Of a stretch of 28,792 nt of DNA, positions 7,279 to 24,200 are shown piece by piece. The notes under the pieces were generated by a model that searched no databases, was not told where the DNA came from, and saw nothing but the letters and a program-made list of their open reading frames with translations. The position numbers were made by a program, and so were the translations under genes. Positions within the stretch are counted from its first letter, which is position 1, and every line of letters starts with the position of its first letter. This DNA comes from a virus. The stretch is taken from IMG/VR virus record IMGVR_UViG_3300042402_003058, positions 1 to 28,792 of that record; one strand, given 5' to 3'.

Positions 7279-7791
7279 ATGAACAATAAACTACCGATTA
7301 CTCGTTTAGGTAAGTTCTTCTCACAGGACGACTTTGATATTAACATTCAGATGGGTCAGGAGTATCTACACGGGGATTTGAATATGAAATTGGTCTTATA
7401 TCGTGTTGATAGACAAAAGACCGATAATGACGACGTATACGCCGAGGCGGGTATGGATGAGATTAAGTTTTTCCCGCCGGTTGAGTTTAATGCGTTGGTT
7501 AAAATAGATGAACCTAAAAATTCAACTTACACCAAAGGTCTTATGAGATATAATGAACCAGGTAATATGATATTATCTGTTTACATTACACACCTCAACG
7601 AATTGGGAATTGATATTAGATACGGTGATTATATTGGTTACGCGGATTCAGAAGAAAAATTGAGATATTACACGGTTACCAATGACGGTAGAGTAACATC
7701 TGATAATAAACATAAAATGTTCGGATACAAACCACATTATAGAAATATAGTTTGTGCCCCTACACAAGAAGGAGAATTTAGAGGAGTTTAA
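7279..7791 (+). CDS. Neck / head-closure protein candidate (gp14 position)
   Basis: A 170-residue protein without membrane segments. It starts with a loop-rich part and then shows beta segments, including Gly-Asp-Tyr-Ile-Gly-Tyr (about 113-118) followed by a Tyr-Tyr-Thr-Val strand. This resembles the 'GD-I-Y ... K-Y-I/V' ending of phage head-closure and gp14-type neck proteins. Its position directly before a gp15-like gene and shortly before sheath and tube is where T4 has gene 14. It is shorter than T4 gp14 (256). Its stop at 7789-7791 touches the start of the next gene at 7793, so the two are almost certainly co-transcribed. The identification leans mostly on gene order. Confidence 0.4.
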   Translation: MNNKLPITRLGKFFSQDDFDINIQMGQEYLHGDLNMKLVLYRVDRQKTDNDDVYAEAGMDEIKFFPPVEFNALVKIDEPKNSTYTKGLMRYNEPGNMILSVYITHLNELGIDIRYGDYIGYADSEEKLRYYTVTNDGRVTSDNKHKMFGYKPHYRNIVCAPTQEGEFRGV

Positions 7792-7792
7792 T

Positions 7793-9052
7793 ATGGGAAT
7801 ACCGAAAAGAAAAAACATGATCAATGTTTACGGAAAAAAGGACACCTATCAAGGTGAACACGTAGGAAAAAGAAGACAGGAGTTATTAGATATGATAACT
7901 AAGTCGGATTCATTTCTTCCCGATTCTATTTTACACGATGATCTAGATAAGGGTATGTTGGATTATGTTAAAAAAACATTCATGGTTGTTTCTGATGGAA
8001 CTCAAATACCAATTATCGAAAAAATACTTACAATTCAAAGGTGGGGTGAGTTTAGTGCAAATTGGGAGTTTTCCGATGGGGATGGTAATGTTAAATTGCC
8101 GTTTATTGCGATCATTAGAAAACCTGATGTGCAATTTGGTACAAACCCATCAATACAAAGAACTATACCCGAAAGACACCAATTTCATTACGCCACAGTA
8201 CCGACGTGGGATGGTAATGCTATGGGTGCTGACATTTATAAAATACCACAACCAATTGCATGCGATATAACATATGACATTACAATTGTTTGTAATAAGT
8301 TTAGGGATTTAAATAAGTTCAATAAAATTGTTTTACAACATTTTACTTCAAGACAAGCATATACAAAAGTTAAAGGACATTTTATTCCAATAATTTTGAA
8401 TAGTATTGAGGACAATACCCCAATGGAAACAATGGATGGTCGTAGATTTTATATGCAAACATATAAGTTCATTATGTTAGGATTTCTTATTGATAGCGAC
8501 GAGTTTGAAGTTAAACCCGCAATATCAAGAGCGTTTCTTGTTAATGAATCATTAGGTGGCGCAACTTTTAAAAAGAGATATATCACAAAAACAATAGATG
8601 TTGTAATTTCAACAATTGTGGCCGGAGAAAATCAAACAATTTTCACCGTGGGAGAAAGTATTAATGTGTTATTTAACGTCGCAATTAATGGTATCGTACA
8701 GGAGAAAGATGTTCATTATAGACATTTAGGTGGGACATCTAATATAATATTTGACTTAGCTGGTACCCCTTTAATGGGTGATGTTGTAACTATAAATTAT
8801 TATAAAGGTAAAAACGATAAAATGTATGATCAGTTTGATAATGAATTGCAAGTTGGTCGTGAAACATTTACATATAACGGAAACGACCTTTCTTTTACTT
8901 TAAGTCAAAAAATAAATACGGTTATTAGTATAACAACAAATGGTTTGATCGAATTTGATGAGGAAAACTATCAGTTGACAGATAAGAATGAGGTAACGCT
9001 TACCGGCGCACCCGTTAATGGTTCAAGAATTGACTTTGTCTATCTATACTAA
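7793..9052 (+). CDS. Tail terminator / sheath stabiliser (T4 gp15-like) with C-terminal beta repeats
   Basis: A 419-residue protein. The open frame reaches back to a GTG at 7754, but the ATG at 7793 follows Gly-Ala-rich GAGGAG at 7781-7786 and starts just after the upstream stop, so I take it. Residues about 60-250 resemble gp15: strands with Pro-Phe-Ile-Ala-Ile-Ile, then Ile-Ala-Cys-Asp-Ile-Thr-Tyr-Asp-Ile-Thr-Ile-Val, a helix ending Leu-Gln-His-Phe, and a final Phe-Ile-Met-Leu-Gly-Phe strand. Gp15 caps the tail and holds the last sheath ring. From about 285 on there are two similar beta units, each with a 'xxNGxxxxxxxY' core followed by 'P-x-x-G-x-x-Ile-x-x-x-Tyr'. These extra units are absent from T4 gp15. 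The 3' end interlocks with a minus-strand gene (4-base overlap). Confidence 0.6.
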   Translation: MGIPKRKNMINVYGKKDTYQGEHVGKRRQELLDMITKSDSFLPDSILHDDLDKGMLDYVKKTFMVVSDGTQIPIIEKILTIQRWGEFSANWEFSDGDGNVKLPFIAIIRKPDVQFGTNPSIQRTIPERHQFHYATVPTWDGNAMGADIYKIPQPIACDITYDITIVCNKFRDLNKFNKIVLQHFTSRQAYTKVKGHFIPIILNSIEDNTPMETMDGRRFYMQTYKFIMLGFLIDSDEFEVKPAISRAFLVNESLGGATFKKRYITKTIDVVISTIVAGENQTIFTVGESINVLFNVAINGIVQEKDVHYRHLGGTSNIIFDLAGTPLMGDVVTINYYKGKNDKMYDQFDNELQVGRETFTYNGNDLSFTLSQKINTVISITTNGLIEFDEENYQLTDKNEVTLTGAPVNGSRIDFVYLY

Positions 9053-9322: not shown

Positions 9323-12300
9323 ATGGCAAGTAATAACAGAGTATTCGTGTCACCGGGTGTTTACACATCTGAGCTCGATTTAACATTTGTAGCACAGAGT
9401 GTAGGTGTTACGACATTAGGTTTAGTGGGTGAAACCTTAAAAGGTCCAGCTTTCGAACCAATTTTAATTTCAGATTTTGACGATTTTAAATTGTATTTTG
9501 GTACAACATCACCTGAAAAAGATGGTAATGGTAATCCAAAGTATGAATTAGGATATGTTGCAAAATCATATTTACAAGAATCAAATCAATTATTCGTAAC
9601 AAGAGTATTAGGTCTTTCAGGTTATAAACCATATAAGACTTTCGGTATTAAAACTAGCGGAGGTGTTATATTACAAGAATATGTTGGAAGTACTGATGTG
9701 GGTGAGATTACAATAACTACCACAGGTATTACAACAACAGAAGTTGGCGGTAGTACTCTATTAACAAATATTATCAAACATTTATCTGGTGTTACATCTT
9801 ATAATGGAACCGATATTGTTAGTTTATTAAAAAGTAAGTATGGGGGATATACTGGTTTAACAAATACATCAACTAACGAGTTTTTTGTTTTAGGTGCGCT
9901 TCCAACAGGAGAAACGGGTAATGGTACTGAATTGGTATCTCTATTAACTGAAAAATTATACGACGATAATAATAATACTAAAGAATGGTGGAATGCTATG
10001 CATTATGATGCAAACGGTTTTGTAACCCCACCATCTGGTGATGATGTTTCAGGTGTCTATTCTTATTTATTTCAATTTGATAACTCATCAAATAAATGGA
10101 CAATATTTAGATATGAATGGGATGCTAGATTAGCGTCTGATTATCATAATGTGGTAGTTGCAGCACTTAGATCAAGAGGTGTATATAGCGGTCAAACATT
10201 AGTTCATGAAGTAACGGGTAATACAAGTTTTACATTATCTGCAATTACCGGTCAGACTATTGATACAAACCCATTAGGTGAATTTAATATTAAAGTTACC
10301 GGAATTACCGAAGGAGCAAAAGAATTTACATGCAGTTTTGATAAATCATCAACAAAATATATCAGTAAAGTATTAGGAACTGATGTTTTTGATAAAGACA
10401 ACGGAGATTATCCTGTTTATGTTCATGAAGTTTATTCTAATTACTTAAAATCGGCTTATGAAAGAGGTTTAATAAGAGGTATTCAATTAGATCCTTCATA
10501 TGAATTGGAAGGTGAAAATTTCTTGGGACAATGGGATACCACAATATCTCCAATGGTTGTTTCAGAAGTACGCGGTGGTAGAGTTGCTGATTTATTCCAA
10601 GTTCAAACAATTTCTGATGGTGAAGCTGCTAACTACCAAGTTAAAATTAATATTCAAAATATTAATTTAGAAACAATGGAATTTGATTTAGTTGTTCGTG
10701 ATTTTAACGACACAGACGACAATCAAGTTGCTCTTGAAAAATACACAAGATGTTCAATGAATCCTGATATGCCAGGTTATGTGGCAAGAAAAGTTGGTAC
10801 TTCTGATGGTGAATATCCGTTAGTATCAAAAAGAATTATGTTAATTATGGCATTAGACGCCCCAGTTGATGCAGTTCCAGCAGGTTTTAAAGGATTTGCT
10901 AACAATGAAAACTTTGGCGCGGACAATGATACTTTAGGTAGTGTTACCTTTAAAACTAAATACTTTGATGCGGGTGATGTTGAAACATACGATGCTTCAG
11001 GTGCACCAAATATTGAAGCTGGTGATAAGGTAAGAAAGGTAATGTTAGGTTTATCGAGCACAGTTGGATTTGATTATGACCTATTAAAGTATAAGGGTGC
11101 ATCTGGTAATACTGAAACAACTGGTTTCCATTTATCTAAAAATGCAGCAACAATCACAGGCGCAACTAACGTTACAACAAATATGTTAGGTCAAACCCTT
11201 GAAGATGTATTTGGTGTGGGTGGTTATACTAACACCACAGGTTTTGCATATTACACAACACCTTATGACCTAGAAGGTCAATCCGATGAAGATACTAACA
11301 AATTGACAAACATTAATTTCCGTAAGTTTACATTCGCAGTTTATGGCGGTAGAGATGGTTGGGATATTTACAGAAGAACAAGAACTAATACAGACGCTTA
11401 TATCTTCGGTAAAACAACTTATAAACAAGGTATAACCACAACAGGAGGTACGTTCAGTGCACTAGCTGATTATGCGAATTCGGATTACTACGCCTATTTA
11501 CAAGGTATTGAAACATATGCAAATCCTGAAGCGGTAGATATTAACGTATTTGCTACTCCTGGTATTAACTTCCAAGATCATAGTTCATTGGTAAACCAAG
11601 CTATTGATATGGTTGAAAACGAAAGAGCCGATTCATTGTATATTATGAACTCACCTAATATTACAGGTGCAACTGCAACTGATGAAATTGTGGCAGCGTT
11701 AGATACAGCATCTATCGATTCTAACTATTCAGCAACATATTGGCCTTGGATTCAAGTAAGAGATACTGATAATGCAACTAATCTTTATATCCCACCAACA
11801 GGTGAGGTTGCTAAGAACATCGCATTAACAGATAATGTTTCTTATCCTTGGTTCGCTGTGGCGGGTTACTCAAGAGGTTTGGTTAACGCTGTTAAAGCAA
11901 CCAAAAAGCTTACGCTTGACGATAGAGATGTATTATATAAAAATAGAATTAACCCAATTGCCACATTCTCAGACACCGGTACTATTATTTGGGGTAACAA
12001 AACTTTACAAGTTAGAGAATCTGCATTAGATAGAATTAACGTAAGAAGATTGTTATTAAGAGCAAGAAAGTTAATTTCTGCAGTTTCTGTAAGATTATTG
12101 TTTGAACAAAACGATGATCAGGTTAGAAATGAATTCTTGAGATTGGTTAATCCTATCTTAGATGGTATTAAGAAAGAAAGAGGTTTATACGATTTCCGTG
12201 TAACAGTATCTAACGATCCTGAGGATATCGATGCAAACACTATGAGAGGTAAGATTTATATTAAACCAACTCGTTCTCTTGAATTTATCGATGTAGAGTT

Positions 12301-12340
12301 CATTATTACTCCAACAGGAGCATCATTCGAAAATATCTAA
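9323..12340 (+). CDS. Tail sheath protein (T4 gp18-like)
   Basis: A 1005-residue contractile tail sheath subunit. The N-terminus has the typical opening Val-Ser-Pro-Gly-Val-Tyr-Thr-Ser-Glu (9-17), then Gly-Leu-Val-Gly-Glu-Thr-Leu-Lys-Gly-Pro-Ala (33-43) and a Phe-Gly-Thr turn. The C-terminal core starts around 670 with Val-Tyr-Gly-Gly-Arg-Asp-Gly-Trp-Asp and ends with the sheath-type strands Lys-Ile-Tyr-Ile-Lys-Pro-Thr and Phe-Ile-Asp-Val-Glu-Phe. Sheath subunits form rings around the tube and contract to drive it into the host. The protein is much longer than T4 gp18 (659): the extra mass lies between about 100 and 620, where outer surface domains sit, so the sheath probably carries large exposed domains. 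Followed by a strong terminator; its leader contains a possible operator. Confidence 0.93.
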   Translation: MASNNRVFVSPGVYTSELDLTFVAQSVGVTTLGLVGETLKGPAFEPILISDFDDFKLYFGTTSPEKDGNGNPKYELGYVAKSYLQESNQLFVTRVLGLSGYKPYKTFGIKTSGGVILQEYVGSTDVGEITITTTGITTTEVGGSTLLTNIIKHLSGVTSYNGTDIVSLLKSKYGGYTGLTNTSTNEFFVLGALPTGETGNGTELVSLLTEKLYDDNNNTKEWWNAMHYDANGFVTPPSGDDVSGVYSYLFQFDNSSNKWTIFRYEWDARLASDYHNVVVAALRSRGVYSGQTLVHEVTGNTSFTLSAITGQTIDTNPLGEFNIKVTGITEGAKEFTCSFDKSSTKYISKVLGTDVFDKDNGDYPVYVHEVYSNYLKSAYERGLIRGIQLDPSYELEGENFLGQWDTTISPMVVSEVRGGRVADLFQVQTISDGEAANYQVKINIQNINLETMEFDLVVRDFNDTDDNQVALEKYTRCSMNPDMPGYVARKVGTSDGEYPLVSKRIMLIMALDAPVDAVPAGFKGFANNENFGADNDTLGSVTFKTKYFDAGDVETYDASGAPNIEAGDKVRKVMLGLSSTVGFDYDLLKYKGASGNTETTGFHLSKNAATITGATNVTTNMLGQTLEDVFGVGGYTNTTGFAYYTTPYDLEGQSDEDTNKLTNINFRKFTFAVYGGRDGWDIYRRTRTNTDAYIFGKTTYKQGITTTGGTFSALADYANSDYYAYLQGIETYANPEAVDINVFATPGINFQDHSSLVNQAIDMVENERADSLYIMNSPNITGATATDEIVAALDTASIDSNYSATYWPWIQVRDTDNATNLYIPPTGEVAKNIALTDNVSYPWFAVAGYSRGLVNAVKATKKLTLDDRDVLYKNRINPIATFSDTGTIIWGNKTLQVRESALDRINVRRLLLRARKLISAVSVRLLFEQNDDQVRNEFLRLVNPILDGIKKERGLYDFRVTVSNDPEDIDANTMRGKIYIKPTRSLEFIDVEFIITPTGASFENI

Positions 12341-12706: not shown

Positions 12707-13195
12707 ATGGCCGATTTATTAATGAAAATGCCGACTCCTTACGAACCGAAAAGGGTCAACCGATTTATCGTAAGATTCAACTCAACTTTGGGTATAAACG
12801 AATGGTATGTGTCTGCTGCATCAAGACCAAGTGCTAAAATCAATTCAGTAGCAATTCCTTTTTTGAACACATCAACCTATGTTGCTGGTAGATTTGAGTG
12901 GAATGAAATTAAAATGACTTTTAGAGATCCAATTGGTCCTTCAGCATCACAAGCACTTATGGAATGGTTCCGTTTACATGCTGAATCGGTTACAGGTCGT
13001 ATGGGTTATGCCGCTGGTTACAAAAAAGATATCGAATTGGAGATGTTAGATCCAACTGGAGTTGTGGTTGAAAAATGGTTATTAGAGAACTGTTTTTTAA
13101 CTGATTTAAACTTCGGTGAATTAGATTATAACAGAGATGATTTAGCGAACATTACATGTTCATTAAGAATGGATAAATGTATATTAATCTATTAA
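12707..13195 (+). CDS. Tail tube protein (T4 gp19-like)
   Basis: A 162-residue tail tube subunit, almost the exact length of T4 gp19 (163). It shows the family's order: an N-terminal Tyr-Glu-Pro-Lys-Arg-Val-Asn-Arg-Phe strand (13-21), Ser-Arg-Pro-Ser-Ala (40-44), Thr-Phe-Arg-Asp-Pro-Ile (about 70-75), Trp-Phe-Arg-Leu-His-Ala (87-92), a Lys-Asp-Ile-Glu-Leu-Glu-Met-Leu-Asp-Pro-Thr-Gly strand pair (106-117), and a closing Ile-Thr-Cys-Ser-Leu-Arg-Met-Asp strand. Hexameric rings of it make the rigid inner tube inside the sheath. It stands as a single-gene unit between two terminators, which would allow high, separate expression. The start follows an A/C-rich leader with no Shine-Dalgarno. Confidence 0.95.
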   Translation: MADLLMKMPTPYEPKRVNRFIVRFNSTLGINEWYVSAASRPSAKINSVAIPFLNTSTYVAGRFEWNEIKMTFRDPIGPSASQALMEWFRLHAESVTGRMGYAAGYKKDIELEMLDPTGVVVEKWLLENCFLTDLNFGELDYNRDDLANITCSLRMDKCILIY

Positions 13196-13298: not shown

Positions 13299-14048
13299 AT
13301 GGAAGAATTAAGAATTGACCCAACAATTGCATATGATGTTGTAGAATTACCTAGTAGAGGTATTCATTACTCAAATAAAAGAAAATCTGTTAGAGTTGCA
13401 TACCTAACTGCGGCAGATGAGAATATTTTATCATCACCTAGTTTCTTAAATACAAATACTGTTATACCTGAATTGCTTAGAAGAAAAATTTTAGATAGAG
13501 ATTTCTCAATAGAAGAAATCGTTGAGGAAGATAGACAAGCGATTTTAATATTTTTAAGAAATACAGCTTTTGGATCGGAATATACATTAACAACTTACGA
13601 TCCAAAGACAGATAAAGAGTTTAATACAATAATAAATTTAGAAACTCTTAAACTGAAAGACTTCAAATTATCTGAAAATGCAAATGGTGAGTACAGCTAT
13701 TATTTACAAAAAAGTAAGGTAGACATTACCTTCAAGTTTTTAACAAGAAAACAAGAAGATGAAATAGAAAAAATTAAAGAGAGTTGGAGTGGGTCGGGTA
13801 TTGCACCAGTAGTCACAAAACAACTCGAAATGATGATTAAATCATTCAACGGAGTTACAGATGCGTTAAAGATTAGAAGTTTTGTTGAAATGATGCCTAT
13901 TAAAGATTCACAAGATTTTAGAAAGTTTATCAATGAAAATAAACCAGGGTTAGATTTAACCCAAGAAGTAACAACCCCATCAGGAGATACGATCCAAGTT
14001 AATATTGGGTTTGGGGTAGAATTTTTTCGCCCTTTCTACGGACTATAA
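13299..14048 (+). CDS. T4 gp26-like baseplate / tail assembly protein, in-frame part
   Basis: A 249-residue product resembling the T4 base-plate protein family of gp26: Glu-Leu-Pro-Ser-Arg-Gly-Ile-His-Tyr (16-24), a Val-Arg-Val-Ala-Tyr-Leu-Thr-Ala-Ala-Asp-Glu strand and turn (31-41), the helix Pro-Glu-Leu-Leu-Arg-Arg-Lys-Ile-Leu (56-64), and Asp-Arg-Gln-Ala-Ile-Leu-Ile-Phe-Leu-Arg (78-87). Gp26 is needed for hub assembly in T4. The gene lies between tube and tape measure, the slot that in long-tailed phages holds the tail assembly chaperone with its recoded extension. The frame ends at TAA 14046-14048 right after Val-Glu-Phe-Phe, but a well-formed continuation lies in the +1 frame (14020-14178). 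AAGG lies 7 bases before the ATG. Confidence 0.7.
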   Translation: MEELRIDPTIAYDVVELPSRGIHYSNKRKSVRVAYLTAADENILSSPSFLNTNTVIPELLRRKILDRDFSIEEIVEEDRQAILIFLRNTAFGSEYTLTTYDPKTDKEFNTIINLETLKLKDFKLSENANGEYSYYLQKSKVDITFKFLTRKQEDEIEKIKESWSGSGIAPVVTKQLEMMIKSFNGVTDALKIRSFVEMMPIKDSQDFRKFINENKPGLDLTQEVTTPSGDTIQVNIGFGVEFFRPFYGL

Positions 14049-14178
14049 AAAGTCACAATTAGACGAAATTTTATATATGGTTAAAAAAGGATTCTCATAT
14101 GGAGATGTTTTAACTATGCCGGTTTATCTAAGGAAATATTATGTTAATTACATAATAGAGTTGGAAAATACTAAATAA
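14020..14178 (+). CDS. +1-frame C-terminal extension of the gp26-like protein (or separate gp51-like small gene)
   Basis: The +1 frame opens just after a TAG (14017-14019) and runs 52 codons to TAA 14176-14178, filling what otherwise would be a gap before the tape-measure gene. Its product has a phage-protein look: Phe-Phe-Ala-Leu-Ser-Thr-Asp-Tyr, a helix Leu-Asp-Glu-Ile-Leu-Tyr, then Gly-Phe-Ser-Tyr-Gly-Asp-Val and Met-Pro-Val-Tyr-Leu-Arg-Lys-Tyr-Tyr. A 'GF...V..MP..LR..Y' pattern closes gp26/gp51-region proteins in T4-like marine phages as I recall them. There is no start codon before ATG 14077 (33 residues). A +1 shift at TTT-C (14025-14028) would give one 292-residue protein. A one-base overcount of the T run at 14022-14027 would have the same effect. 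Confidence 0.6.
   Translation, partial: NFFALSTDYKKSQLDEILYMVKKGFSYGDVLTMPVYLRKYYVNYIIELENTK
14022..14030 (+). other. Candidate +1 recoding site TTT TTT CGC
   Basis: Six T are followed by CGC, an arginine codon likely to be rare in this A/T-rich genome. Phe-tRNA on TTT (14025-14027) can slip forward to TTC (14026-14028), after which reading continues GCC-CTT-TCT in the extension frame. The permitted window is narrow: between TAG at 14017 in the new frame and TAA at 14046 in the old one. Confidence 0.4.
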
Positions 14179-14192: not shown

Positions 14193-16124
14193 ATGGCAGC
14201 AAGTAGAAGTCAACTAGCAAGATCAGCAGCAGGTGGAAGTGAATCACAATATTTAAGTGATTGGGCAAGTTATAATAGAATTGGTACACTAAGTGCTGAA
14301 CAAAAAACCGCAGCACTTGCTCAAAGATCTGAATGGGCTAGAAGTATTAATACAGGTAGCAATAGTAATAGCAACACATCACAAGGCTCAATTGTAAATC
14401 CAATGGATGTTGCTAAAGCTGGCGAAGGAACATCAAAGATTTCAGATATAGCCAGCCAATATAAATCTGGTATACAAATTACAGATTTCGCAACTCCTTT
14501 GACTTTTGCTAAAAAAATGAACGACGAAATTTTAAAGCAATTAACAGTTGAATCAAATTTACACACAGAAATTAATGAAGGTCTAGGTTTAACCGGTCAA
14601 TTATCAAAAGATTTTAGAGATACATTAATTCAATCAATACCAGCAGCCACACAATTAGGATATGACATCGGTAATATTACCGATATGATGACAACACTAT
14701 CAGATAAAACGAGTAAGTTTAGTCTTATTTCTTCAAATACATTAGACCAAAGTTTTACGACCTCAAGGGCATTTGGTATGACACTAACACAGTTAGCCGA
14801 AGCGTTTGCTGAGTTTGAAAAAGTTGGTTATGGTGCTGCGGATACGTTAGATAAAATTAACCGTGCTGGTTTAGAATCTGCATCCCTTGGTTTAAATTCT
14901 AAAAAAACAACACAAGATTTAAAAACAAATATTGAGAAATTAAATGAATATGGGTTTAAAAATGGTATTGAGGGGTTAAACAGAATGGTACAAAAGTCCG
15001 CTGAGTTTAGAATGAATATGGCGGAAACATTCAAAGTTGCTGAAAAGGTTATGAATCCAGAATCTGCAATTGAGTTAACAGCCAATATGCAGATGTTAGG
15101 TGGCGCAATAGGTGACTTAAATGATCCACTTAAATTGATGTATATGGCAACCAATGATGTTGAAGGATTACAGGATGCAATACATGGTGCAGCAAGTTCG
15201 TTAGCGGTATATAATGAAGAACAAGGAAGATTTGAGATAAAGGGAGCTAATTTAAGAAGAGCAAAAGAAATGGCAGCTCAGTTAGGTGTATCATATAGTG
15301 AATTTGCTAAAGGGGCGATTGCGGCGCAAGAAAGAATTATAGCCAATGATGCATTATTAGCAAAGGGTTTTGATATTGACGAAAAAGATAGAGAATTTCT
15401 TACCAATTTATCACAAATGAAAGATGGTGAAATGCAAATCGTAATACCAAAATCGTTAGAAGATACCATAGGTAAGGAATTGGGTAAAAGTGAAATAAAA
15501 TTGAGTGAATTAACTAGTGAACAAATAAATTTATTAAAAGAACAAAAAGAAAAATTAGAGCAGAAAACCGCCGAACAAATGGCTGGAGAAATGTTAAGTG
15601 AAACTAAAAGAATGGCTAACAACATGGAAGCGTTTATTAAATCAATGGCGATATCAGGTAAAAAACAAGCTTTTGGTAAGGAAGGAGAGTTATTAGATGG
15701 TAGTGATAAAATAGTACCTTTATTAGGACCGATTTTAAAACAAATGAAAGACTTTGCGGATAGTGGTTTAGCATTATCTAAGGACCCAGGTAGAGTTGCG
15801 GCAACCGTAAAACCAGCAATAGACGCACTAAAAAATATTTCAGGTGAAGCAGACGGATTACTACGTTCGGCACAACAAGTTTTAGACGGAATAAAAAATG
15901 AATTTTTTAACTCAAATAGTACTCCAAAATCAAAAGATCAACAAAAATTAGAAGAAGAAAACGAAAGAAGAAAAGAAAGACAAAAAGTCAAAAACAACGA
16001 TAATGCTTTTATGTTCAACGCTAATCTTAAAGTAACTCATGTTGGACTGGAAAACAATTTAACAATACAACAAACGGAAAAGGGTTATTTAACCCCTATG
16101 ATCAATATGTCTAACATGTCTTAA
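14193..16124 (+). CDS. Tail tape-measure protein candidate
   Basis: A 643-residue, mostly alpha-helical protein rich in Ala, Lys, Glu and Asn. It has a low-complexity Ser/Asn segment near residues 50-65, long helical stretches from about 95 to 540, a strongly charged coiled-coil-like segment around 445-485, and another (Glu/Arg/Lys-rich) near 587-610. It ends with a short beta-like tail. No membrane segment or enzyme motif is seen. It follows the gp26-like gene, where the tape measure lies in tailed phages, and its size is near that of T4 gp29 (590), which sets tube length. The helical make-up and position support this; there is no diagnostic motif, so another internal tail protein remains possible. 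Starts at the first ATG after a TATTTATA element. Confidence 0.55.
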   Translation: MAASRSQLARSAAGGSESQYLSDWASYNRIGTLSAEQKTAALAQRSEWARSINTGSNSNSNTSQGSIVNPMDVAKAGEGTSKISDIASQYKSGIQITDFATPLTFAKKMNDEILKQLTVESNLHTEINEGLGLTGQLSKDFRDTLIQSIPAATQLGYDIGNITDMMTTLSDKTSKFSLISSNTLDQSFTTSRAFGMTLTQLAEAFAEFEKVGYGAADTLDKINRAGLESASLGLNSKKTTQDLKTNIEKLNEYGFKNGIEGLNRMVQKSAEFRMNMAETFKVAEKVMNPESAIELTANMQMLGGAIGDLNDPLKLMYMATNDVEGLQDAIHGAASSLAVYNEEQGRFEIKGANLRRAKEMAAQLGVSYSEFAKGAIAAQERIIANDALLAKGFDIDEKDREFLTNLSQMKDGEMQIVIPKSLEDTIGKELGKSEIKLSELTSEQINLLKEQKEKLEQKTAEQMAGEMLSETKRMANNMEAFIKSMAISGKKQAFGKEGELLDGSDKIVPLLGPILKQMKDFADSGLALSKDPGRVAATVKPAIDALKNISGEADGLLRSAQQVLDGIKNEFFNSNSTPKSKDQQKLEEENERRKERQKVKNNDNAFMFNANLKVTHVGLENNLTIQQTEKGYLTPMINMSNMS

Positions 16125-16174: not shown

Positions 16175-19100
16175 ATGCCATTAGATTTTAACACGACTAA
16201 AGATTTTAGGGATAAAATGTTAAAAAGGACATTAGATCCTGTTTACGGAAGAAGTCCGTCCCCAAAAACTTTCACAAGTACAAACTATAGTGTTCAAAAT
16301 CTAGGAGATAGTGAAAACCTATTGTTACCAAATGTGGATGATAGCAGATCAAAGGATTTATCAATTCCAAAAAAATCTAATATATTTAAACCAGCCGAAT
16401 ATCTTGTAAGAGATTCACTTCAAGATTTACCAAGAAGAGCAAATTTAAGTTTATATCCATATTTTGTGGCTACCGAAAATAATTTACTTGGTATAATGAC
16501 AACAAGTAATTATGATACAGAATCGGAACTTTTTAAATTTGCTGCAAAAAATATCAGAACAAACCCACAAGGTCCAGTTTTAGCAAGAATTAGTCAAAAT
16601 CTTAATACCACCATAAATGAGAGAAATAGAATAGGTGAGGCCTTAGGTGGTAACACAACTACATTAATTAATATCCTTAGGGGTAAGGAACCTCTTATTG
16701 CTGGGAACCCTAAAATTACGGTTTCAAGTAGTTTACTTGGACAAGGAATAGATTTTTTACAGACTGTTGCAGGAACTCAATTACCATTTAGTACAATACC
16801 GGGAGATTACTTAACAAACCCCCGTAATCCGATCAATGTTAGACCGACGGACGTTTCGTCGGGAACAAAGGCTTGGCAGGATTTAACAGGTGTTTTAGGG
16901 TCAATAGTAGGTATTCAGAGAAGACCACTCCCATCAAGAAAACCATCAGATATTTTAATCGAACATATGGGTAGTTCTACCAAAAATAGATTATTCGATT
17001 TATTATCTTTTTCAAAATATGCACCAAATTATACCACATCGGCAAGATCACAAGCATCAACAACTTTGGGAAAGTTTCCAAGTCAAGTTGCACAAGGTTT
17101 TAAATCACTTTTTGGTATGGAAGCACCAAATCAAGGTGCTTATATTGGTGATGATAGAGAAAACGATGTAAAACAAGCAACAAAAGATTTGTTTAGCGGT
17201 AGACCTGTTAGAAGTAGTTTTTATTTGTCACGTATGTTCGATCCAATCTCTGCGGAGTTATTTCACAGTAGTAAAAATGTAATTGAAAATGGACCAATTG
17301 GTGGCAATTTAACATGGATAAGCGGAAACAAAACAAGTGCAGCTAATCTTACCAATTTACAAAAAACAAAATCTACGGATTTTAAGTTTAGAACGGACTC
17401 AATATTAGACATAACGCAACAAATATTAGATACTAAACCACAAAATGGCGGGGACGCGTTAGCACACATAGGTCATATTTTAGACCAAACAAGTAAATAT
17501 TTTAAAGATGGAGACACCCTAATTTCAAGAGGGTCTGGTGTTCGTTATATTGATAATTCAGGACAAGACATTGGTGTTGAATATGCGAGAGTTTGGACAA
17601 AAGATAGACCTTATTTAACATACGGTAATACCATGCCGTTATATAAAGAAACAACAAAAAAACCATATTATCAAGGTGGGGAAACACCATTTAGAAGAAC
17701 GGGTATTAGAAAATTTGACGGTAGCGTAATGACAAATACTTGGAACCTTAATATTGCCCCAATGTCAGATGGTACAAGCAGCGACAAGTTTCCCGGATCT
17801 AGCAACATCCTACCAAATCCAAACGGTAAAGGATTTTATGCTAAAAAGTACATGTTATCAATTGAAAATCTAGCATGGGGTGCATCAACAACACCCGGAT
17901 TTACAGTTAACGATTTACCATATTCTGAAAGAGGACCAAATGGTGGTCGTGTAATGTGGTTTCCACCATATGACTTAAAAGTAAGTGAGCAAAATAGTGC
18001 AAAATGGGAACCTAATACTTTTTTAGGTAGACCCGAACCAATTTATACATATCAAAATACAGAAAGAAGTGGACAGTTATCATTTAAGATAGTTGTCGAT
18101 CACCCAAGTATATTAAACTTATTAATTAGAGAACATTTTAAATCAGTTAACGAAACCGATGTAGATGCTTATATTAATGCATTTTTTGCTGGTGCTAAGG
18201 ATATTGATTTTTATAGTTTAATTAGACAATACCCTAATTTGAATAGTGACGATCTCTCTATGATACAAAACTATTTGAATAATAGTAAAGATCCTGTGGT
18301 AATAAATAATTTAAAAAATGCAACTAGTGGTAAGGTTGCCGATAATCCGGGTGGAACTTCGACCGCAGATGCTAATAAACAAAACGTTACAAAAAAACTA
18401 GATTTAATTTTCGTTAATAATGATCCAGGCGGAGGAGATTCCAACGAATCTGCATCTAATTATCAAACATTAGCAAATTTTAATGAAAACTTAAGTCAAA
18501 CAAAATTAAATGACGCTCTAGTTAGTGTTATCAATGGAACAACAAAAGAAGCTGCTGCCGATAGAATTTTACTTTTTGGTAAAGATACAATTACAAGTTC
18601 AGAATCTGGATCAACAGTTAATAAAATTATAACCGATCATCAAACAACCTTTAGTGCAAATAATACCGCAAAGGCCGAATTGATTAGTTCTTTAGATACT
18701 TTAATAACCGATTTAGAAAGTAAAAGTGTAAAAGGTGACGTTGTCATTTTAATTTCATCTAGAACAACAAAATCAGGGAATGAAAAAGGTAATTATCAAT
18801 TATCTGTTAGAAGGTCACATTCAATTTATAAAACAATATTAGAAAAGGTTAATAAAAATAATGTAAAAAGTGAATGGAATTTTGAAAAATTGGATAGTCA
18901 ATCTTTTCCGAATGGAATGGAAGTGTATGTATATGAAAATCAATATCCATTAAATTCATCAGATAAAAAAGGATTAGGTTATGAAGGTCAAACTGGTAAG
19001 CTTATTATAAGAACAACAAATTATGGATATTTAAAGAGTCACGAAAAATACGATTGTTCAAAAGTAAGTTATAATAATACTGACTTAACCAGATACTCAC

Positions 19101-20944
19101 CTTTATCGTACGGTTGTAGATCATCTTCATATTCAATTGAATATTCTAAATCAAATAAAAGCGATAAACCTGTTAACACATCAAGCCTCACTCAACTAAC
19201 ACCAGGGGGTAGAGTTAGTACGAATACTACTAAACCACCCACTGACCTAATGAAAAGGATTATAATGAAAACATTGTCGGAAGAATTTTACTTTAAAAAA
19301 TTAGAGGAAACTTCACCAATGATTTATAGTTCATTAAAAGAAAAATTGAGATACTTTCATCCAGGTTTTCACTCAATGACACCAGAAGGATTAAACTCAC
19401 GTTTAACTTTTTTACAACAATGTTTAAGGCCAGGAGATACCATACCTGTTAAAGGTTTATCTGACAATTCAGATATAAACGCAAGAAATACAACATTCGG
19501 CCCACCACCTATTTGTGTTTTACGAGTTGGTGATTTTTATAATTCTAAAGTTGTTATAAGAGATCTTAACATACAATTTGAATCAAACATTTGGGACTTA
19601 AATCCGGAAGGTATTGGTATTCAACCAATGATTGCGGAGGTAACAATGCAATTAAATTTCTTGGGTGGTCAGGGATTAGAAAAACCGGTAGAAAGATTAC
19701 AAAATGCTTTATCATCTAACTTCTTTGCAAACACAGAAATATATGACGAAAGATCAATATCAACGAACACAAAGATTGGCGGACAAGATGCAAACGAGTT
19801 TACAAGAGAGTTTATTCAGTCATTAAGTGATAGAATAAATCCACCGGTTGTTGCGAAGGATACAAGTATAACTCCGGTTACCGAAGGACAATATATTGGA
19901 ACCATAGAACCTAATCAACCTTCTATCGATTACACAAATGCAGTTAATCAACTATTTGAAAAAACTAGTACATATTTTACAACATACGAAAGTTTCTATA
20001 ATAATGTTTTAACATCTTATGGACCAATATTAACAAACTTAATCATGAATCGAGATTATAGGAAATTGAATGCTTATAACGTATTCACAGGAGATACGAG
20101 TACCGCGATTAGTTTATTTGGTTTATATACAGACAAAACATTACCAACCTATATTGATGAGCTATCAACAAAATTAACAACATATATAAAAGATTCTAAT
20201 CCGTCATATTTGATTGATATGTTTGATTTAAAAGATGTTGTTCCCGAGAAATATAAAACCGATATTAATGAGTTTTTAACTAACAACATAAATAATATAA
20301 TACCAACAAAATTAAATGAAATTAATGAGATAAAAAGTATTAATGATTTTGAAATAAAAAGAAACGAATTAATTGAATCATTAGATAAATTGAACTACAT
20401 AACAAAAAACGGTTCTGATGTTAAAACAGAAAAAAATAAATCAACAGCAATTGTATTAAAAACAATAACACCACCAGGATTTAGTGATTTTGATAAAAAT
20501 AAATTTTATTTAAATTATAATACAGCTATTGATTATATTGATAGCAATACAACAAAAATGTATGAAAAATTAGACACGACGTTTAATTTTGAAAATATTG
20601 TAATTACCGATAATGTCGTAAAAAATATATTAAACGCAATTTTAAAAGATAGCGCGGACGATATTGTTACAGGAATTGGTATGGTTTTATCTTCCGAAGA
20701 CTACTCAACATTAGACAAGTTGGAAAATAAAATTAAAGATAAAATTAATAAATGGTTTACAAAAATAAAAGAAGAAAATTTAAAGTTTGCAAAACCACCA
20801 ATTCGTAAAAATAGTAAACCTATTACTTATACAATGCCACCATTAGATATAAGTGAAGTTGAAACCCCAACAACGGACGAAATAAAATGGTTGTTTGGTG
20901 AAAAACATAATGTTACAGATTCATTAAATTATTATAGAATATGA
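16175..20944 (+). CDS. Large baseplate / tail-tube initiator protein with an OmpA-like insertion
   Basis: A 1589-residue protein. Two blocks look like baseplate proteins of T4-like marine phages: residues about 590-650 (Met-Trp-Phe-Pro-Pro-Tyr-Asp-Leu, Phe-Leu-Gly-Arg-Pro-Glu-Pro, Glu-Arg-Ser-Gly, Val-Asp-His-Pro-Ser) and about 1105-1195 (Phe-Gly-Pro-Pro-Pro-Ile-Cys-Val-Leu-Arg-Val-Gly-Asp, Trp-Asp-Leu-Asn-Pro-Glu-Gly-Ile-Gly, Gln-Asn-Ala-Leu). Between them, about 735-990, lies a segment with the OmpA C-terminal pattern, best seen as Asn-x2-Leu-Ser-x2-Arg-Ser-x2-Ile near 875-886. In OmpA this domain grips peptidoglycan. The usual Gly-His-Thr-Asp is here Ser-Arg-Thr-Thr, so ligand binding may be lost. 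Residues beyond 1200 are helical and charged. The gene's TGA overlaps the next ATG (ATGA), so translation is coupled. Confidence 0.7.
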   Translation: MPLDFNTTKDFRDKMLKRTLDPVYGRSPSPKTFTSTNYSVQNLGDSENLLLPNVDDSRSKDLSIPKKSNIFKPAEYLVRDSLQDLPRRANLSLYPYFVATENNLLGIMTTSNYDTESELFKFAAKNIRTNPQGPVLARISQNLNTTINERNRIGEALGGNTTTLINILRGKEPLIAGNPKITVSSSLLGQGIDFLQTVAGTQLPFSTIPGDYLTNPRNPINVRPTDVSSGTKAWQDLTGVLGSIVGIQRRPLPSRKPSDILIEHMGSSTKNRLFDLLSFSKYAPNYTTSARSQASTTLGKFPSQVAQGFKSLFGMEAPNQGAYIGDDRENDVKQATKDLFSGRPVRSSFYLSRMFDPISAELFHSSKNVIENGPIGGNLTWISGNKTSAANLTNLQKTKSTDFKFRTDSILDITQQILDTKPQNGGDALAHIGHILDQTSKYFKDGDTLISRGSGVRYIDNSGQDIGVEYARVWTKDRPYLTYGNTMPLYKETTKKPYYQGGETPFRRTGIRKFDGSVMTNTWNLNIAPMSDGTSSDKFPGSSNILPNPNGKGFYAKKYMLSIENLAWGASTTPGFTVNDLPYSERGPNGGRVMWFPPYDLKVSEQNSAKWEPNTFLGRPEPIYTYQNTERSGQLSFKIVVDHPSILNLLIREHFKSVNETDVDAYINAFFAGAKDIDFYSLIRQYPNLNSDDLSMIQNYLNNSKDPVVINNLKNATSGKVADNPGGTSTADANKQNVTKKLDLIFVNNDPGGGDSNESASNYQTLANFNENLSQTKLNDALVSVINGTTKEAAADRILLFGKDTITSSESGSTVNKIITDHQTTFSANNTAKAELISSLDTLITDLESKSVKGDVVILISSRTTKSGNEKGNYQLSVRRSHSIYKTILEKVNKNNVKSEWNFEKLDSQSFPNGMEVYVYENQYPLNSSDKKGLGYEGQTGKLIIRTTNYGYLKSHEKYDCSKVSYNNTDLTRYSPLSYGCRSSSYSIEYSKSNKSDKPVNTSSLTQLTPGGRVSTNTTKPPTDLMKRIIMKTLSEEFYFKKLEETSPMIYSSLKEKLRYFHPGFHSMTPEGLNSRLTFLQQCLRPGDTIPVKGLSDNSDINARNTTFGPPPICVLRVGDFYNSKVVIRDLNIQFESNIWDLNPEGIGIQPMIAEVTMQLNFLGGQGLEKPVERLQNALSSNFFANTEIYDERSISTNTKIGGQDANEFTREFIQSLSDRINPPVVAKDTSITPVTEGQYIGTIEPNQPSIDYTNAVNQLFEKTSTYFTTYESFYNNVLTSYGPILTNLIMNRDYRKLNAYNVFTGDTSTAISLFGLYTDKTLPTYIDELSTKLTTYIKDSNPSYLIDMFDLKDVVPEKYKTDINEFLTNNINNIIPTKLNEINEIKSINDFEIKRNELIESLDKLNYITKNGSDVKTEKNKSTAIVLKTITPPGFSDFDKNKFYLNYNTAIDYIDSNTTKMYEKLDTTFNFENIVITDNVVKNILNAILKDSADDIVTGIGMVLSSEDYSTLDKLENKIKDKINKWFTKIKEENLKFAKPPIRKNSKPITYTMPPLDISEVETPTTDEIKWLFGEKHNVTDSLNYYRI

Positions 20945-21267
20945 GTAGGGAGTATTTTGATAGGTATCAATTTTTTATAAATGATGGCAATTTTAGAATA
21001 GTTCCAGGTATTGACATACCAATCAAAGGGACCGATAAATATATACAGTTTAAAAGAGGTAAAGATAGATTGGATAAAATGTCTCAAGAATATTATGGAA
21101 CACCAACATTCGGTTGGTTAATATTAACAGCTAACCCAACTATTGGTAGTGTTGAGTTTGAAATACCTGACAATTCTTTTATAAGAATACCATATCCATT
21201 AATTAGCTCTTTACAAGATTATAAAAGAAGCGTAGAATTGTATAATCTATATTATGGCGAAGAATAA
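20941..21267 (+). CDS. Baseplate wedge protein, gp53/LysM-like
   Basis: A 108-residue protein with the core of gp53-type and LysM-related tail proteins: Tyr-Ile-Gln-Phe-Lys-Arg-Gly-Lys-Asp-Arg-Leu-Asp-Lys-Met-Ser (34-48), Tyr-Tyr-Gly-Thr-Pro (51-55), Gly-Trp-Leu-Ile-Leu-Thr-Ala-Asn-Pro (58-66), and the closing Ile-Pro-Asp-Asn-Ser-Phe-Ile-Arg-Ile-Pro-Tyr-Pro. In T4, gp53 (196 residues) clamps neighbouring wedges together and has a LysM-like domain; this one is close to the domain alone. It overlaps both neighbours: 4 bases with the gene before (ATGA) and 14 bases with the gene after, so the three are one translational unit. Confidence 0.72.
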   Translation: MSREYFDRYQFFINDGNFRIVPGIDIPIKGTDKYIQFKRGKDRLDKMSQEYYGTPTFGWLILTANPTIGSVEFEIPDNSFIRIPYPLISSLQDYKRSVELYNLYYGEE

Positions 21268-24200
21268 AATATCTAATTCGGAAGATATACATGTTAAGGT
21301 TGATCAAAATAATTTAATATACATCGACCCAAACTCAACTATTGATGGAGATGGTAACATTACCCCAAGGAACATTGCTCAGGAAAAATTGGTAATGTAT
21401 GTTAACCTTGAAGCGGATTTAGTCCCTCGTTCAATATTAGCATCTGGTAACGACAGTAACACTTTAACAAGTATTGCGAGTGGAACATTAAATTTCTTAA
21501 AAAACGGAGACGGACAAGACTACGATACAAGATGGACAGATTCGTTTTTAAACACAGAAGAAAAAAAAGACAGCAAAGGAATACCAACCGGAGAGTTTTA
21601 TCAATCAGATAAAACAGGACAATCTTTTGGTATTAATGATATTAATATATCAATAAAGGGTTTTAACTCAATCCCTACAATCAGTATTAATTTTATTGAT
21701 GTTAGAGGTAAGACATTATTTGAATCTCCAGAAAATTCACCTTACAAGGCATTCTTTCATATTCCATGGCCAATATTTTATTTAACAGTAAAAGGTTTTT
21801 ATGGTAAGGCTATAAAATATAGATTACATTTGGTTAAGTTCACAAGTAAATTTAATGAATCAAGCGGCAATTTTGAGGTGAACACTTCATTTGTTGGATC
21901 AACATATGCATATCTATCAGATATACCATTACAAGGAATATTAAACGCACCTTACCTATTTCCACATGAATCTGAAAAAACAACTAAAGTAGACACCAAG
22001 ACAGGCAAAGAATTACAAACATTATCAAAATCATCTAGAGGATATGAGATGTTAAATACGGTTTATAATGAATATAAACTAAAGGGATTAATTGATAATG
22101 ATTTTCCAGTTAAAACATTAAGAGAAGTTTTAACAATTGTTTCTACATTAGATAGTTTATTAGAAAAACAAATATTCAGTGAAGTAGTTGACATGAGATT
22201 GTTTAGCGCAATGAAAGAATTTGGAGAACAAATTGATACATTTGAAAAATCAGTACGAGGATGGGCAAGACAAAATTTAGAAACCACACCAGTTTCATCA
22301 TTTAATGAAATTAATTCATTAGATACAACATCGGTTTTTCAATCTTTTTATACCAAAGAAACTGATAAAAAATCTAAAAGATTAATTGAAGGACCAAATG
22401 AAGGTACCCTAGAACATCTAATTCAAAAATATACAAAATTAATAGACTCTAGTATTTTATTTAATGAAAATCTAATAAAAGCGCAACCTAAACAACCCCA
22501 CATGATTAACAATACTGGGGCGGCATTTACTAAAAGTTCATTAGGTATTACTAATGTAGAAACTAACATCGGACAACACTATTATACCGAAGAAACAACA
22601 AGTAATGTTGCGGTTAGGATTGATAAATTGGTTAGTAAAATACAGGAGATTAGAAAAAATTATGAAGAACAAAGAGAAAAATTAGAAATTGCGGTTCAGA
22701 ATAAAATGAACGAAATTGTAAGTAATAAAAAGAATGGTTTCGGATTTGAACCAACAATAAGAAACATTTTTGCGGTTATATTGTCTAATGCTGAAGTGTT
22801 AATACGTTTAATGAAAGACGTACATAAAAGAGCATTTGACCAATCGGAAACAAGAAAAAAAATAGTATCCAATTTTTCTAAAGAATCTGATGGTGAGTCT
22901 ATATATCCTTGGCCTGAAATGAAAGCCACAGTAAAAAATAAAGAAAATACCATTATATATCCTGGCGACCCTAATTTCCAAGCTAAACTAGGTTCGGACA
23001 ACCCAACTAGATGGCCCGAAGTTTCGTTTATTGAATCCTATATCGGGGTGTCAACAAATAAAATAGATCCGTTAGCCGAGAAAGAAGCGGGTATAGACAA
23101 AGCAAGCTCACAGACTCAAAACAATATTGATAATAAAAAAATTAAAAAAATAAGTTCAGCAAACGGTGTTGTTAATATATTACCCTATGTCAATAAATTG
23201 CCAGATTCTTTTCTTTATGAAATACAAGAAAGAGTGTCAATGTATACATTAGTTGATACATTCTCAACTAATACTTTACAAGAACTGGCTGGTATCGAAT
23301 ATATTAATATTTCCGAGTCACTTATAGGTGAAAGAAGTTTAAGAAAATTACTAAAAGAAAAAGTATTAGGACCTATAACTTTAATAGAACAATTAGAAAA
23401 ATTATCTCCTTTTGAAAAATTTTCATATTATCAAGATAGCTTACCAACGACGAATTATTTGGCTTCATTTAATCAACAATCATTTAATATTGAACAATAT
23501 AAATCATCAAATGGTTTTAGCGACAATGGCTCATATACTGGATTAACAAAAGAATTATCTAATGTTGTTACAGAAGAATATAGAACAAACATATATCCAT
23601 TTTCTTCTGATACGTATTTGACATATTTAAATGGTGTTACAAAATATGATAAAACATTATTACAATTTAATGGATTTTTAGAAGTTGATACTGCACAAGG
23701 TTTAATAACCGGTCAAATCGATCCTAAATTTTGGGTTAAGTCAGGTTATGAAACAAATTTATTTGCTAGAAAGTTTAATATAAATCAAACATCAACAAAT
23801 ATTTTAAACACACCATATTTTCATAAACAATTATATAGTGACTTTTTTAACACAACAACATCATATGGAAAATATGCGGGATCTGCATATCTTTTATTAA
23901 ACTCAATGGCGTTTACAGATTTAAGTGATATAAAATCTGGTTTTACAATTAATACCAAAACACAATATAACGATGTTTTAACATCATCTTTATTTAAAGA
24001 AATTGGATCAAGTCAATTTGTACCATATCATTTAATGTTGAAATGGGGATCGATATACCATAGATATAAAAAATATATAAACGAAGATATAGACATCTTA
24101 ACAGGCTTCACTACATCAAATACAAATACAACACCAACTAAAATAGATGGGTTTGATTTTTTTGATAATAGAACCGGACAAGTATTTTATACTGACCCAA

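Follow-up and report, generated by a model that had tools for sequence, protein, structure and literature searches.

A conserved frame break at UUU_Y suggests +1 frameshifting in a putative T4-like tail assembly chaperone gene of a viral contig and its relatives

The viral contig IMGVR_UViG_3300042402_003058 (28.8 kb; the whole analysed stretch of 28,792 nucleotides is referred to below as the window) carries a gp26-like open reading frame (ORF), located after the tail sheath and tail tube genes, which is considered here as a candidate tail assembly chaperone (TAC) gene expressed in a short form (TAC-N) and, by +1 frameshifting, a long form (TAC-NC). The 0-frame product ends in GVEFFRPFYGL, with its stop codon at positions 14046–14048, while in the +1 frame a stop at 14017–14019 is followed by an open stretch from 14020 to a TAA at 14176–14178, which encodes NFFALSTDYKKSQLDEILYMVKKGFSYGDVLTMPVYLRKYYVNYIIELENTK. 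A run of six T (14022–14027) makes up 0-frame codons 242 and 243 and is followed by CGC (14028–14030). Joining residues 1–243 of TAC-N to the extension (TAC-C), with TTT-C read as a single Phe, yields a TAC-NC of exactly 292 amino acids. The coordinates and fusion length given in a preliminary description of the window, which proposed a +1 programmed frameshift at this point from the nucleotide sequence, are thereby confirmed. The features concerned are:

13299–14048, + strand: gp26-like ORF of 249 amino acids, putative short form of the tail assembly chaperone (TAC-N), identified by PF12322, phrog_150 and an AlphaFold model
14020–14048, + strand: overlap of the two open frames, reaching from just past the +1 stop to the 0-frame stop; close-family site consensus TTYTTTCGYCCTTTCTAYGG
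14022–14030, + strand: predicted shift site TTT TTT CGC (UUU_C), in which the A site would hold the rare Arg codon and the P site codon 14025–14027
14029–14178, + strand: putative TAC-C, the +1-frame extension of 49 codons and a stop, identified by conservation, pN/pS and a gp51-type profile match

The gp26-like ORF scores higher than the curated cut-off of PF12322, the T4 base plate protein family (1e-6; 29.0 bits against a cut-off of 24.5), in agreement with the family assignment first suggested, and also matches phrog_150 (1.8e-9). The AlphaFold model of the 249-residue TAC-N, with a predicted local distance difference test (pLDDT) score of 86.6, resembles BFVD models of gp26-family proteins from SP-15 (1.8e-14) and Aeromonas phage 25 (2.6e-5). 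Nothing significant was found by a profile search of the PDB sequences, and searching phage records directly with the DNA gave no matches.

A close family of 80 viral contigs, with gp26 identities of 69–100 %, could be distinguished. The 0-frame stop occurs at an unchanged place in every one of these contigs that is readable there, and the full +1 extension is present in 77/80. Two of the remaining three end before the extension is complete, and the third (L060) is broken close to its contig end and was set aside. Scans with the gp26 genes of Flavobacterium phage immuto, Microcystis phage Mel-JY01 and LR756508 added 180 further loci. Nearly all of those with sufficient sequence display the +1 layout, as do SP-15 (Bacillus), RM378 (Rhodothermus) and GXN1. 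A complete +1 extension is thus found in 247 loci (163 distinct; 66 at <70 % identity), with Flavobacterium, Bacillus (SP-15), Rhodothermus (RM378) and Microcystis phages among the carriers. The check proposed at the outset, alignment of homologues across the frame break, hence shows it kept in all readable close relatives and in more than 160 distant loci.

An open frame of 51 codons is in itself unremarkable, with a 2 % chance under a first-order Markov model of the window. The +1 extension nevertheless goes beyond chance, since the 0-frame stop is conserved and purifying selection acts only in the +1 frame. The ratio of non-synonymous to synonymous polymorphism (pN/pS), computed in the close family over the 38 codons past the 0-frame stop, is 0.204 in the +1 frame, 1.92 in frame 0 and 1.20 in the -1 frame, with 0.284 for the gp26 body. 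The extension evolves as a protein in the +1 frame only. Within the overlap, CGC/CGT and TAC/TAT alternations are silent in frame 0 but cause Ala/Val and Thr/Met changes in the +1 frame. Constraint thus acts on the end of the short product as well, suggesting that the short and the long product are both in use.

Each of the 260 junctions examined has one or more UUU codons with U or C as the next base. These include 116 of the form TTT TTT TGG CCT, 76 TTT TTT CGY CCT, 35 TTT CTT TGG CCT, 14 TTC TTT TGG CCT and five TTC TTT CGC CCT, along with rarer forms. The slippery codon may thus be the first or second of the pair, one of which is always UUU. Codon 243 is invariably TTT among 53 distinct close-family genes, and six contigs (L018–L021, L052 and GXN1) have TTC TTT C and lack the T6 run. 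In the window CGC is among the rarest codons (5/8,981 codons; 0.6 per 1000), as compared to 6.6 per 1000 for CGT. The retention of UUU_Y and the scarcity of CGC bear out the earlier proposal of a TTT-C slip site followed by a rare codon. A further motif lies upstream of the site:

14013–14016, + strand: GGGG, invariant in the close family, where codon 239 is always GGG; candidate stimulator

Although GGG is a minor Gly codon (67/493), Gly codon 239 (14013–14015) is GGG in 53/53 distinct close relatives and is possibly part of the frameshift signal. The GGGG lies 8 nucleotides before the proposed P-site codon, with CGC as the A-site codon and the 0-frame stop six codons on.

The T4 proteins gp26 and gp51 both give full-length matches to PF12322 (9e-64 and 4e-52, respectively) and match each other in BlastP comparison (E 2e-6), and on these sequence matches they are paralogues. 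Gp51 has an extra C-terminal tail, which lies inside its phrog_634 match. In cyanophages, KVP40-like phages and phages of Sinorhizobium, Agrobacterium, Aeromonas, Pseudomonas and Stenotrophomonas, this tail is encoded in the -1 frame by a short "gp51" that overlaps gp26, mostly with a T_TTT_TTC or T_TTT_TTT junction. A 93-residue probe designed as a cyanophage gp26-like N-terminus was employed in the searches, and only its matches, taken from the records, were used. The profile of the +1 extension matches that of the -1 extension (probability 96.4 %, E 1.3e-9), which in turn matches residues 199–243 of T4 gp51 (E 1.9e-6). When T4 gp51, as a single sequence, was compared directly with the +1 profile by hhalign, no match was obtained. 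By this two-step chain of profile matches, the +1 extension is homologous to the gp51 tail. A branch with a Shimodaira–Hasegawa approximate likelihood ratio test (SH-aLRT) value of 100 separates the +1 loci from the -1/T4 group in a 62-row gp26 tree, in which deep placements on long branches are unsure. The exceptions on the +1 side are RAS14 (-1 layout, on a long branch) and two contigs in which the extension has its own ATG. Stenotrophomonas phage RAS14 (L085) carries its -1 extension at a T7 run near positions 3200–3270 and is not annotated as such, and the two own-ATG contigs (L270 and L276), with the start codon right after the gp26 stop, lie together inside the +1 group. Their nested position indicates that the separate-ORF form probably arose from the +1 form.

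It is thus very probable, from this comparative evidence, that the window contains a tail assembly chaperone gene of the T4-like kind which undergoes +1 programmed frameshifting, the gp26-like protein representing TAC-N and the frameshift product TAC-NC. The homology of the extension to the gp51 tail and the two-form layout would accord with the tail-chaperone theme of the preliminary description, as the conserved layout and the selection in the +1 frame would with its proposed joining of the gp26-like protein to a conserved extension. Most ribosomes would stop at 14046–14048 and release the short TAC-N. In a minority, tRNA-Phe on the UUU at 14025–14027 in the P site, with the slowly read CGC in the A site, would slip by +1 and re-pair with the UUC at 14026–14028. 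Reading in the +1 frame would then continue to 14178 and produce the 292-residue TAC-NC. By analogy with gpG/gpGT of lambda, both chaperone forms may coat the tape measure protein, with the extension recruiting tube subunits. We infer that it is the ribosome rather than the polymerase that shifts, as we do the slipping codon, the ratio of the two forms and the chaperone function.

An improbable alternative is that the extension represents a separate small gene whose translation starts near the gp26 stop through coupling or reinitiation. This is the arrangement suggested by the ATG directly after the gp26 stop in L270 and L276, and by the annotations of immuto, SP-15, RM378 and Mel-JY01, in which fragments of the extension are called as genes of their own. 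However, no start codon occurs near the junction in the window, as originally remarked, and in 140/250 loci the +1 frame lacks ATG, GTG and TTG throughout the stretch that begins at the site and ends 14 codons beyond the stop. Moreover, the conserved +1 residues F-F/Y-G/A/V-L precede the 0-frame stop and any start comes only after them, no junction has lost the UUU_Y codon, and in T4 gp51 the tail belongs to one long protein. The independent gene that was foreseen as a contrary finding does occur among the homologues, but only in the two derived contigs.

Slippage of the RNA polymerase on the U run, with one base deleted, would produce the fusion from a subset of transcripts, and a T7 run is available for this at 116 junctions. 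With the layout unchanged at TTC TTT C, TTC TTT T and TTT CTT T, which have no run of six or more, this explanation is very unlikely. Equally remote is a shift of -2 instead of +1, which reaches the same frame and is the direction used in phage Mu. Re-pairing after such a shift is possible on the U6 and U7 sites, but, as read from the pairing at the sites, a back-slip of two bases leads to mismatches at TTC TTT and TTT CTT, where a +1 slip from UUU re-pairs perfectly. A one-base sequencing or assembly error, with six T for five in a plain 292-residue ORF, had been put forward as an equal explanation, and a homopolymer does lie exactly at the frame break of the window, but such an error is excluded, the break being common to all readable close relatives and most distant ones, across many metagenomes and named isolates, and several junctions, including those of the six contigs above, lacking the T6 run.

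Several observations weigh against the proposed frameshifting chaperone gene. Foldseek comparison of the TAC-N model with the PDB gave nothing significant, leaving the solved chaperones unmatched. The structure 2ob9, relevant for fold comparison with HK97 gp13, was retrieved with a probability of 0.13, which is below significance. The rare Arg codon is not universal, with CGT or TGG replacing CGC in many relatives. No RNA structure stands out downstream of the site in the window sequence (z 0.15) and no stimulator was identified. The GGGG at 14013 was considered as a Shine-Dalgarno element similar to that of release factor 2 (RF2), from which it differs in spacing, and the sequence varies outside the close family and is lost in distant members. 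Finally, the assignment of the downstream gene at 14193–16124 as a candidate tape measure gene is by position only.

The proposed gene shares with the T4-like chaperones (genes 26 and 51) the PF12322 family, the TAC-N and TAC-NC forms and a homologous C-terminal extension. It differs in that the T4-like systems use a -1 shift at poly-T or, in T4, two separate genes, in contrast to +1 at UUU_Y in the window. The cyanophage/KVP40-type gene 26 has its extension, homologous by profile, at the same junction (the gp26 end, at Phe-Phe), but with a -1 site mostly right before the stop, whereas the stop of the +1 type is situated three to six codons downstream. A -1 extension at a U_UUU_UUY heptamer is not found in the window and its relatives, where the extension is in the +1 frame. 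It appears rather likely that the chaperone gene of the T4 superfamily comprises two deep branches which use a U-rich junction in opposite ways, one shifting -1 at U_UUU_UUY (cyanophage, KVP40 and rhizobial phages, with gene duplication in T4) and the other, which is broad, mostly uncultured and includes the window, shifting +1 at UUU_Y.

The lambda gpG/gpGT system, reportedly described by Xu, Hendrix and Duda in 2004, likewise derives a short and a long chaperone from one gene by a frameshift near its 3' end, with the tube gene adjoining, but the lambda shift is -1 at a G/A-rich site. The conserved and selected layout in the window and its relatives would similarly supply two forms through a frame change near the 3' end of the gene.

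Shifting by +1 at UUU_CGU has been established in a quite different system, and a UUU_C class of sites was predicted by its authors (PMC3498833). The likeness extends to the UUU_C slip, CGY in the A site and the better pairing of tRNA-Phe with UUC, while the ribosomes are eukaryotic and the gene unrelated. The bacterial RF2 sites are CUU_U, or UUU_U in a few species (PMC5009743). They share a +1 P-site slip at a pyrimidine-rich codon, and immuto-type sites contain CUU_U, but RF2 autoregulates its own expression, whereas the window gene apparently makes two useful products.

The T4-like chaperone framework, in which some groups frameshift and T4 has separate short and long genes, is attributed to Vladimirov, Gautam and Davidson (2022, Virology 566:9-15) in the citing paper PMC10274946, and poly-T -1 signals in T4-like TAC-N genes are cited in PMC12846349. 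A short cyanophage gp51 has been noted as being without the first ~200 residues (PMC3037559). In a 2016 review T4 is the exception to the frameshift rule and the archaeal myovirus HSTV-2 a likely +1 case (PMC5009743). No +1 case in the gp26/gp51 family was found in the literature searched; Vladimirov 2022, known through citing papers, may contain one. The idea of the T4-like chaperone has thus been published already, and the new element appears to be the use of +1 rather than -1, on UUU_Y, by a deep and broad clade.

Few recoding events in phages are as conserved as the frameshifts of tail chaperone genes, which determine the proportion of two assembly factors. With four layouts in one protein family (-1 shift, predicted +1 shift, gene duplication and separate ORF), the evolution of frameshift direction becomes directly testable, and the putative UUU_Y +1 sites would form a natural bacterial set with more than 60 diverged replicates. 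The records of the named phages L082, L083, L282 and L283 list the extension as a hypothetical protein, either separate or truncated. The extension of immuto, SP-15, RM378 and Mel-JY01, currently filed in this way, calls for a correction of the annotation.

The neighbouring genes in the window are:

9323–12340, + strand: tail sheath protein (phrog_23, 3.7e-62), context
12707–13195, + strand: tail tube protein (phrog_4542, 6.5e-28), context
14193–16124, + strand: candidate tape measure protein of 643 amino acids, by position

The chaperone gene had been placed between the tube and tape measure genes. The tube gene is borne out by its phrog_4542 match, whereas only its position points to the tape measure gene. 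No family match was obtained for the 14193–16124 product in profile searches including PHROGs, and the immuto gene following the extension, which is annotated as tape measure, has no clear BlastP similarity to it. Downstream of the tail genes the window encodes two very long ORFs (16175–20944 and 21254–27112; 1589 and 1952 amino acids, respectively), without a convincing family match, the PHROGs search of the second being of its first 915 residues only. Furthermore, a 432-residue ORF at 7754–9052 has PF23932, a phage termination protein family, as a weak match that stays below the threshold (0.002).
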